Source: an uncultured Flammeovirgaceae bacterium (GTDB lineage: Bacteria; Bacteroidota; Bacteroidia; Cytophagales; Cyclobacteriaceae). Taken from it: DNA of 58,388 bases. The DNA is taken from contig CAKZYA010000027.1 in NCBI GenBank assembly GCA_937883755.1, forward strand, positions 1-58,388, given 5' to 3'. Below are positions 17,615-39,849 of this stretch, one piece after another; the stretch's first letter is position 1; each line of letters begins with the position of its first letter. The position numbers and the translations under genes are program-made. The notes under the pieces were generated by a model, which worked only from the letters and a program-made list of their open reading frames with translations, searched no databases and was not told where the DNA came from.

Positions 17615-17641
17615 AACACCGCGCGACGGTCGCCAGAACAC
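17615..17641. repeat. GC-rich hairpin repeat, copy 1
   Basis: AACACC, then GCGCGACGGTCGCC, then a GAACAC-type flank. The GC-rich core contains GCGA-CGG-TCGC, a 4-bp stem with a 3-base loop. Almost the same sequence stands at 52898-52924. It lies between the sulfatase pair and dnaK. Confidence 0.65.
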
Positions 17642-37869: not shown

Positions 37870-38445
37870 TTATAAAGTGTCTAAAGGACTTTTGATTCTT
37901 GATTTTGCAATATCAGTAACATGCGTGTAAATCTCAGTAGTTCTGATAGAATTGTGCCCTAGTAGTTCTTGTACATAGCGAATGTCGGTTCCACCTTCTA
38001 TCAAGTGAGTGGCAAAACTATGCCTCAGAATGTGGGGAGTAACTGGACAAGTAATTTTGGCTTTTTGAGCGGCTTGTTTTACTATATTTTGCACACTTTT
38101 AGCCGAATATTGAGCCTTACGCTGCCCCTCAAACAGATATACTTTCGGACGATACTGCTTAAAATACTCCCGTAATGTTTCAAGTAATTTTGCGGAAAGC
38201 ATGACACTTCTATCTTTTTTGCCTTTGGCATTTCTGATGTGTATAAGAAGGTTGTCGGAATCTATGTCTTTTATTTGAAGAGCTAGCAACTCCGAAAGCC
38301 GTAGCCCAGCGCCGTACAGTAGTTGTAGAATGCACTGATGCTTAAGGTTGCTGGTAGCTTCAAACATACGTTTTGCTTCGCTTTTACTGATGAACTTGGG
38401 TAATGTATTTCGTTTCCGTTTCGGATATAAATGGGCTAGTACTAG
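37870..38445 (-). pseudogene. Tyrosine recombinase fragment (catalytic domain only)
   Basis: The catalytic domain of a site-specific integrase, about 190 residues. R65 in YGAGLRLSE, K93 in GKKDR, H154-xx-R157 in HILRHSF, H180 in LLGHNS and Y189 in EIYTHV (numbered in the 207-codon open frame from 38493) are all present. The N-terminal core-binding domain is missing. The open frame continues into 38446-38493, but those codons are the end of the IS3-family element. The rest of the integrase is not found beyond the IS at 39763. The fragment is therefore probably inactive, unless the hybrid N-terminus is tolerated. Confidence 0.75.
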
Positions 38446-38660
38446 TGACCCTTTACTGAATTTCGGACCGCGGAAAAGTAGAAAATCGGCCATTATTTTT
38501 ATGCGTAATGCACCTCATCAGGTGTTTTGTAATCAATAGAACTATGGGGTCTAAACTGATTATATTCTTGTCGCCAGGCTTCGATCTTTTCCTGGGCATC
38601 TTCCAATGACAAAAACCAATTGACGTTTAGACATTCATCACGAAAGCTGCCATTGAATGA

Positions 38661-38676
38661 CCGCGGCGGCGGACCG
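38661..38676. repeat. Micro-insertion 1 in IS3 orfB (16 bp)
   Basis: CCGCGGCGGCGGACCG on the plus strand. It splits the codons for PYIE and SFNG. It can fold as CCGC-GGCG-GCGG with an ACCG tail and is close to insertion 4. Confidence 0.8.
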
Positions 38677-38773
38677 CTCAATATACGGATTATCGGTCGG
38701 TTTTCCTGGTCTTGAGAAATCTAGCATGACTTTATTATCGTAGGCCCATTTATCCAAGGCTTTTGAGATGAAT

Positions 38774-38787
38774 CCGACATGGAATGT
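38774..38787. repeat. Micro-insertion 2 in IS3 orfB (14 bp)
   Basis: CCGACATGGAATGT. It splits VDNGSE and FISKAL. ACAT-GGA-ATGT forms a 4-bp stem with a 3-base loop. It is the same as insertion 6 except for one exchanged base pair. Confidence 0.85.
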
Positions 38788-38926
38788 TCACTTCCGTTAT
38801 CTACCTGAATACGATTGGGCCTAGCTTTATTAAGGCAAGTGACATGTTTGATAAAAGAAACAACATCTTCCCCCTTTATGGATTTGTCCGGATAAATACC
38901 CAGACATTTTCTACTAAAATTATCTA

Positions 38927-38940
38927 CCGGGCCACGGCGG
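38927..38940. repeat. Micro-insertion 3 in IS3 orfB (14 bp)
   Basis: CCGGGCCACGGCGG. It splits RALTV and VDNFS. The fold is weaker (GCC-AC-GGC). The end point is uncertain by one base because the flanking base repeats. Confidence 0.8.
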
Positions 38941-38994
38941 CTACAGTTAAAGCCCGAAACCTGCTTCCATCAAATAGCTGATCAGCTACGAAAT

Positions 38995-39008
38995 CCGCGC
39001 GGCGGCCG
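38995..39008. repeat. Micro-insertion 4 in IS3 orfB (14 bp)
   Basis: CCGCGCGGCGGCCG. It splits QCWSM and DFVAD. CCGC-GCG-GCGG forms a 4-bp stem with a 3-base loop and a CCG tail. Ends are uncertain by one or two bases. Confidence 0.8.
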
Positions 39009-39369
39009 CCATGCTCCAGCACTGATTAATACTGGAAAGCTCAATCCGATCCAAACGATGGGAACAGCTTCTATTTCTTCTAGGTCTTTTACTGCGCAAA
39101 TTCAATCCTTCCAGCTTATAGAGCCTGTAAACCCGGTTGCGCGAATCCCTCCAGCCTTCTCGGCGAAGTAGAACATGAATCCTATCTAAACCATATCGCA
39201 CTCTCGTCATAGCTATCTCTCGCATGCGCCTACGGATGGCCTGCTCATCTCTGGCTTGCGATTGATAATACCACATGGATCGGTGTAGTAATACCAATTT
39301 ACACGCACGTCGTATCGGAATCCTGTAATCATTCATCATTTGCTCAGCTAATTCCTTTGACTTAGCAGG

Positions 39370-39383
39370 CTTGGGCAGCCCCG
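39370..39383. repeat. Micro-insertion 5 at the orfA/orfB junction (14 bp)
   Basis: CTTGGGCAGCCCCG. It splits KKALK and PAKSKELAEQ in the frameshifted product. GGG-CAG-CCC can pair. The placement can slide by up to three bases. Confidence 0.75.
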
Positions 39384-39633
39384 CTTCAGAGCTTTTTTTT
39401 GATCACATCTTGGAGCATTTGCTTGTCAAGGCTTAAGTCAGCAACTAACTTCTTTAGTTGGGCATTTTCTTCTTTCAGTTGCCTGAGCTCGCGTAGTTCG
39501 CTCGTACCAAGTCCCCCATACTTTTTCTTCCAGTTGTAAAAGGTCGCCTCGCTGATCCCTAACTTCCGACATACTTCATCTACTTTCGTCCCGGTCTCGG
39601 CTTGCTTCAAAGCAAATACAATTTGTGACTCTG

Positions 39634-39647
39634 CCGTCATGGAATGA
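39634..39647. repeat. Micro-insertion 6 in IS3 orfA (14 bp)
   Basis: CCGTCATGGAATGA. It splits the codons for SKFT and ESQIV. TCAT-GGA-ATGA forms the same hairpin as insertion 2, with the outer A-T pair turned to T-A. Confidence 0.85.
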
Positions 39648-39658
39648 TGAACTTGGAC

Positions 39659-39673
39659 TGGCCGGCAACCCGG
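39659..39673. repeat. Micro-insertion 7 near the orfA start (15 bp)
   Basis: TGGCCGGCAACCCGG. It follows the first codons of orfA. CCGG-CAAC-CCGG pairs. This insertion is in frame and so the least certain of the set. Confidence 0.6.
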
Positions 39674-39849
39674 TTTTTCATCGTTTTGCTATTTAGTTAA
39701 TACTACGATTTAAAAGCCAATTTTCTCTAATTTACACTGTCCGATTTTTTGGTAAGAGGTCAGTAAGGCTACAATATCTTGTCCAGATACTTCGTATCTT
39801 CCCAAAATCCGAGCTCTAGCCACGCTCCCGTTGTACTTCATAAGGAATA

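Follow-up and report, generated by a model that had tools for sequence, protein, structure and literature searches.

The seven short inserts that break the transposase frames of an IS3-family element in an uncultured Flammeovirgaceae bacterium are very probably copies of very small mobile elements conserved in structure, namely tailed hairpins of 14-17 nt. The element lies in a window (the whole stretch of DNA that was analysed) of 58,388 nucleotides. A mobile micro-hairpin was among the candidates proposed in a first, sequence-only reading of this DNA. That candidate is now well supported: precise presence and absence at filled and empty sites, dispersal over genera, nesting and stem covariation are all observed directly, as is the reuse of sites. 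The unit has a 4-bp stem, a 3-4-base loop and a 3-5-base tail, 14-17 nt in all, and several sequence types coexist in the Cytophagales. The units are found where harm is small: transposase genes and short tandem repeats between genes hold them, and a few are in frame within a host protein.

In the literature searched (open-licence papers), no earlier description of such elements in Bacteroidota was found. If confirmed, they would be mobile elements near the lower size limit for carrying a recognisable structure. Since there are several types, recurrent sites in unrelated transposases and exact empty sites, the movement of such tiny repeats is directly testable with regard to intermediate, enzyme and target. 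A caution also follows for annotation: where such genomes show a frameshifted transposase, inserts and not decay may have broken it.

The IS3-Family Element and Its Seven Inserts

In the labels used here, G stands for a genome (G000 is the bacterium's own), C for a contig and L for a locus, and L001 is the window copy. Besides the window copy, the own genome has two full-length copies, L003 (contig C23) and L002 (C16). L003 is intact: its two open frames encode 88 and 276 aa and its rve integrase core scores above the cut-off, and so it has the two frames and the integrase domain of the IS3 family; the rve match of the window copy is below the cut-off. The copy in a sister species (L005) aligns with L003 with zero gaps, and its protein has a 72% match in Cesiribacter sp. 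SM1 (Cytophagales, Bacteroidota).

The window copy is 1317 bp long, and L003 and L005 are 1218 bp each. Alignment with these two gives exactly seven insertions in the window copy, of 15, 14, 14, 14, 14, 14 and 16 bp (Table 1), which bears out the number, positions and strand given by the sequence-only reading. The sizes it gave also stand, except that one insert is 15 bp long and therefore keeps the frame there. Most inserts are GC-rich as claimed, but two of the seven have only 50% GC. The claimed 4-bp stem with a 3-4-base loop is perfect in five of the seven; one needs a G-T pair and one has a mismatch. Otherwise the window copy differs from the L003 frames only in the divergent C-terminal tail, by one stop and one 2-base gap.

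Table 1. The IS3-family element of the window and its inserts
Feature	Length and form	Position	Strand	Remarks
IS3-family element	transposase frames broken by seven inserts	38446..39762	-	based on copies L003, L002 and L005 and the rve match
Insert 1	15 bp, CCGG-GTTG-CCGG-CCA	39659..39673	-	missing from L002, L003 and L005
Insert 2	14 bp, TCAT-TCC-ATGA-CGG	39634..39647	-	14-mer five times in own genome, five times in G003
Insert 3	14 bp, imperfect stem	39369..39382	-	boundaries ambiguous by up to 4 bases
Insert 4	14 bp, GCGG-CCG-CCGC-GCG	38996..39009	-	letter-identical in IS3 gene L076 of G030
Insert 5	14 bp, GCCG-CCG-TGGC-CCG, one G-T pair	38928..38941	-	letter-identical in IS110-type gene L121 of G122
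Insert 6	14 bp, ACAT-TCC-ATGT-CGG	38774..38787	-	present in L002; related units at the site in L008 and L010
Insert 7	16 bp, or 17 if the base that follows is counted, GCGG-TCCG-CCGC-CGCG-(G)	38662..38677	-	present in L002; widely dispersed type

L002 carries two of the seven inserts at the same sites and with identical letters, plus a 1-base gap in the tail. The proposed comparison of copies from the same genome and from relatives did find both states, with sites filled in L001 and (two) in L002 and empty in L003 and L005. The window copy and L002 differ by 146.5 synonymous and 39.5 nonsynonymous differences, and the four compared IS copies are under strong purifying selection. The window copy, which has been struck seven times, is presumably now dead.

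Three side observations concern the window. A tyrosine-recombinase (Phage_integrase) frame at 37870-38493 on the minus strand starts inside the IS and probably belongs to an integrase that was disrupted when the IS inserted. At 17620-17633 on the same strand, between two reading frames, is GCGACCGTCGCGCG, a hairpin shaped like insert 4; this 14-mer also occurs in L045 of the own genome. Finally, insert 2 and its counterpart in L049 each supply an ATG in frame with the remainder of the first transposase frame, in both IS3 lineages.

Inserts in Other IS Copies

In other genomes, four IS copies have like inserts. One is L006 (G030), another is L008 (G001), and the remaining two, A and B, are both in G033, the assembly of which is a single contig of 6.67 Mb. 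A degraded remnant in G033 (L010) has at least one insert. Copies A and B are 97.8% identical along their length, have different flanks and by hand reading share at least eight inserts; A has an additional 14-bp unit nested in one of these. A third copy of this type (L141) matches positions 1-1049 of the 1321 of A and is empty at all of the seven sites, out of eight, that it covers. A composite of two nested 14-nt units was also noted in identical form, at different places, in G033, G125 and G030 (L081, L137, L142).

The sequence-only reading asked that an assembly or sequencing artefact be excluded first, and the window genome is indeed a draft of 75 contigs. However, the same units occur in independent assemblies, including the one-contig G033, and they are recurrent sequences with covarying stems, so that an artefact is for practical purposes excluded.

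Translational bypass had also been suggested, and in that reading, or in one with splicing, the inserts would be left out as the transposase is produced. In its favour, the hairpins have precise boundaries with conserved protein on either side, and insert-laden copies have multiplied in G033. However, A and B differ by four synonymous and seven nonsynonymous changes, one change outside and three single-base gaps, and this divergence, although from few numbers, looks like that expected without selection, which speaks against bypass. Intact copies coexist with the broken ones, and a unit in the miaB gene of G505 is in frame and translatable as is. Bypass is therefore highly improbable.

Dispersal across Genomes

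Of the 118 family genomes, 11 have the 16-mer of the insert 7 type, with 36 matches in all (none for the reversed control). The 17-mer occurs in two of 395 genomes in the phylum sample, twice in the own genome and 29 times in G505, which belongs to the same order (control, one match). The pattern of inserts 2 and 6 has 12 matches in the two genomes of the same genus, the own one and G003, against one for the control; in the other 116 family genomes it has seven against eight, and so it is no better than chance there. A scan of viral contigs with the 17-mer returned 46 stretches, which have no chance estimate and are unused as evidence.

The 14-mer of insert 2, TCATTCCATGACGG, has five copies in the own genome, located in the window IS, at an N-terminal site of a different IS3 lineage (L049, C34) and in three intergenic repeat arrays. 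Of its five copies in G003, two are in IS66 genes, two in intergenic arrays and one in a place that is unclassified. In intergenic repeats of a CCTGAACA-like unit (L309, L310 and L311 in G000; L304 and L308 in G003), TCATTCCATGACGG directly follows CCTGAACA or CCCGAACA.

The transposases that host such units, some of them letter-identical across genomes, are of the IS3, IS66, IS110, Mutator and Y1 types. For example, the Y1 gene adjoining L121 in G122 starts with a 15-mer identical to one in L006, and a Mutator-type transposase gene of G125 has a 16-mer near its start. Units are dispersed in both orientations. Filled and empty sites stand side by side within genomes, as in the IS copies of the own genome, L141 of G033 and a repeat in G127, in which one of the four filled copies has a second unit. 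Some G505 units form inverted pairs about 50-95 bp apart (L162, L164, L197, L204), which recall REP doublets, and contig C2 of G505 stops two bases past a 17-nt unit (L161).

Structure of the Units

The anatomy was studied with 23 inserts read by hand from several IS copies (21 distinct sequences); the set omits one decayed insert of L008 and further doubtful inserts of L010. Twelve are 14 bp long, four 15 bp and seven 16 bp. Perfect 4-bp stems with loops of 3-4 bases are present in 17 of the 23, whereas inserts with shuffled letters averaged 6.9 and never exceeded 15 (2000 trials), and four of the six non-perfect inserts come from L008 and L010, both of which look decayed.

The 16-bp type is GCGG-TCCG-CCGC-YGCG. 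Its next base is G in every row of one listing, and with a looser 16-mer definition it is G in 39 and A in four of 43 distinct sites. A repeat in G127 has four filled copies, which read CTTTTTG, then 17 nt, then TTCG or the like, and two empty copies that read CTTTTTG-T-TTC; G035 has one empty copy of this repeat type, also CTTTTTG-T-TTC. By these filled and empty repeats, the unit is probably 17 nt long and replaces one base. Evidence for the replacement comes from three empty copies of a single repeat, and in a fourth, L218, the junction differs.

Conservation of the stem was examined in 1.19 Mb of G505 by fixing the loop (TNCG) and the tail (NGCGG) and leaving the stem free, with two scrambled controls. 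Perfect 4-bp stems occur at 24 of 254 such anchors, versus 0 of 227 and 0 of 215 in the controls. Part of this sample had been selected around known matches; in the 800 kb that were not, the count is 7 of 169, versus 0 of 165 and 0 of 155, and two units there with the unusual stems CCGC and CTCA may be due to chance. The same test gave 7 of 43 in G033 and 2 of 25 in the own genome, counts that are partly circular because all of the own cases and at least six of those in G033 are known inserts.

The G505 stems GCGG, CCGG, TCGG and ACGG, each with its complement, vary only in the outer pair, which in this commonest type occurs in all four Watson-Crick forms (G-C, C-G, T-A and A-T). The stem thus covaries and is conserved by structure. 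The loops TCCG, TTCG and TACG, which are of the UNCG class, are a hint at RNA. However, other loops, GCCG, GTTG and AGCG, are also present, and the closing pair is G-C.

Two other definitions were set aside. The 14-nt class with loop TCC and tail CGG is not over-represented in G505 (4 of 667 versus 4 of 502 and 6 of 1069 in the controls); its counts were 2 of 143 in G033, where the controls gave 0 of 71 and 0 of 332, and 5 of 179 in a sample of the own genome, three of these being known inserts, so that as a general class its excess is weak or absent. Plain GC-rich hairpins with a 4-bp stem, counted over 453 kb of own-genome sequence, are in slight excess (338 versus 293 in one model sequence), and this measure was replaced by the loop-plus-tail anchors.

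Target Sites and Reuse of Sites

Merging near-identical flanks reduced 54 sites of the 16-mer type to 43 distinct ones, and the flanks of these were compared. The unit is preceded by A in 22, G in 15, T in six and C in none, and the second base after it is T in 28 of the 43. Flanking 7-mers are alike at a 7-base period (2.86 versus 2.0 matches, p = 0.0005); offsets 1 and 2 give nothing, and offsets 3 to 5 give a weak excess. The junctions of the inserts are ambiguous by 0-4 bases, inconsistently, with no consistent target-site duplication.

The same sites are used repeatedly. Among five IS lineages, the site lists of which were entered by hand and are in some cases accurate to a few bases, nine lineage-site pairs are shared, versus 0.16 expected under random placement; if the eligible sites are limited to 120, the probability is 0.0001. 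For example, the insert 6 site is occupied in L001, L002, L008 and L010.

Sites filled in several lineages, such as that of insert 6, might indicate that the inserts are ancestral and were inherited within IS lineages. The sequence-only reading had named this finding, the same inserts as an ancestral feature of other species, as one that would refute it. Sites are indeed common to species, but each type compared has insert-free relatives (L003, L005, L141). Moreover, around the two inserts common to the window copy and L002, dS is 0.39, 0.60 and 0.60, while all 30 insert bases are identical. These observations point to inserts that were gained repeatedly and not handed down. We consequently rejected long-term inheritance of the inserts that copies share as unlikely, and the ancestral explanation as a whole is quite improbable. 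The inserts common to the window copy and L002 would instead be separate gains at the same sites, or shared sites could have spread by very short gene conversion tracts.

Units outside Transposases

Called frames make up 91% of the G505 sample, yet 15 of its 24 units are outside them. Two of the nine units inside frames were checked closely. One, of 17 nt, is in frame in a variable linker of the miaB gene (UPF0004, Radical_SAM, TRAM; L157:17861-17877) and would be translated as part of the linker; in eight miaB orthologues the linker is different or shorter at this position. The other, a related unit, keeps the reading frame of a gene for a class IV aminotransferase. Some of the remaining units are at gene ends or may be due to chance.

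This distribution bears on another proposal, which is that a host or rival-element system silences transposons by writing short hairpins preferentially into transposase genes at conserved positions. The window copy, with its seven inserts, has no other disabling lesion in its conserved frames, at least eight inserts are common to two G033 copies, and five transposase types are hit, with the same codon sites used in divergent transposases. However, the units are common in intergenic repeats, which hold five of the ten TCATTCCATGACGG copies in the own genome and G003 (one more being unclassified), and most of the G505 units are outside called frames. Inserts do outnumber ordinary lesions in some IS copies, which speaks for the proposal, but with such units also lying between genes, targeted silencing is unlikely. 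Because the window copy has seven inserts without another lesion in the conserved frames, we keep a transposase-directed process as a minority reading, and preferential writing into transposases is possible.

A more specific version has a small but real chance of being right. It would have a structure-recognising system that uses an RNA copy and preferentially writes the 14-17-nt elements into transposase genes at conserved codons, thereby disabling transposons in Cytophagales. The RNA copy is considered probable in this version since most loops of the commonest type fall in the UNCG class and the stem shows covariation.

How the Units Might Move

As small mobile elements, the units would insert into short preferred sites without a consistent target-site duplication. 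The 16/17-nt type would usually take a site where it has a purine to its left and GT to its right, and it probably replaces one base. We predict that a folded single strand, either RNA or ssDNA, is inserted by an enzyme acting in trans.

Two partners were considered. Among 118 family genomes, Y1 transposases show no significant association with the 16-mer (9 of 11 carriers versus 86 of 107 others), and the carriers G030 and G123 are without any Y1 transposase. Reverse transcriptases likewise show no association in these genomes (7 of 11 carriers versus 48 of 107 others, p = 0.34). Neither Y1/RAYT nor reverse transcriptase was therefore accepted as a necessary partner.

Comparison with Known Small Elements

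Rickettsia palindromic elements, given in the excerpts of PMC10969869 as about 150 bp and in frame in a host protein, resemble the G505 miaB unit in the latter respect, whereas the units here have 16-17 nt. The byp elements of Magnusiomyces capitatus mitochondria, for which the excerpts of PMC5009743 report frame-restoring translation, are likewise many short inserts that interrupt conserved proteins; unlike what those excerpts describe, the insert-bearing copies here decay and intact copies exist. The GC clusters of yeast mitochondria are, in the excerpts of PMC4478555, mobile GC-rich palindromes (GC42 has 42 nt) with a putative target duplication. As far as those excerpts go, they share with our units the GC-rich palindrome, mobility, merging or nesting and a suspected RNA route, but they are longer and mitochondrial, and here the junctions are ambiguous by 0-4 bases and one base is apparently replaced.

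REPs and REPINs with their RAYT transposases are described in the excerpts of PMC3116915 and PMC3733652 as dispersed palindromes, one end of which bears an unpaired tag, GTAG or CGTC. Our units are likewise dispersed and palindromic, have an unpaired tail and in some cases form inverted pairs. However, compared with those excerpts they are about half the length, the tail of the 16/17-nt type is NGCG(G) and not GTAG or CGTC, and two carriers (G030 and G123) have no Y1 transposase. Identity with REPs thus fails on tag and partner gene, and identity with GC clusters on target duplication, while identity with bypass elements appears unlikely on present evidence.

The small dispersed repeats (SDRs) of Nostoc and its relatives, reportedly described by Elhai et al. 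2008, are said to be 21-27 nt long and to be predicted hairpins with compensatory changes, embedded in short tandem repeats. The inserts here are shorter (14-16 bp, one type probably 17 nt), occur in Bacteroidota and are frequent in transposase genes. They do share the hairpin with compensatory changes (the G505 stems) and the tandem-repeat setting (the 7-base flank period and the repeat arrays). One SDR, SDR5, has an exact insertion site in HIP1 according to the excerpts of PMC4390886. In this respect too, as far as the excerpts allow, the two kinds are alike, as they are in being very small, dispersed and nested. Because length and host group differ, and because SDRs were compared by description, we do not class the Bacteroidota elements as SDRs; nevertheless, by those descriptions, SDRs would be the nearest known kind, and the elements here would work similarly.
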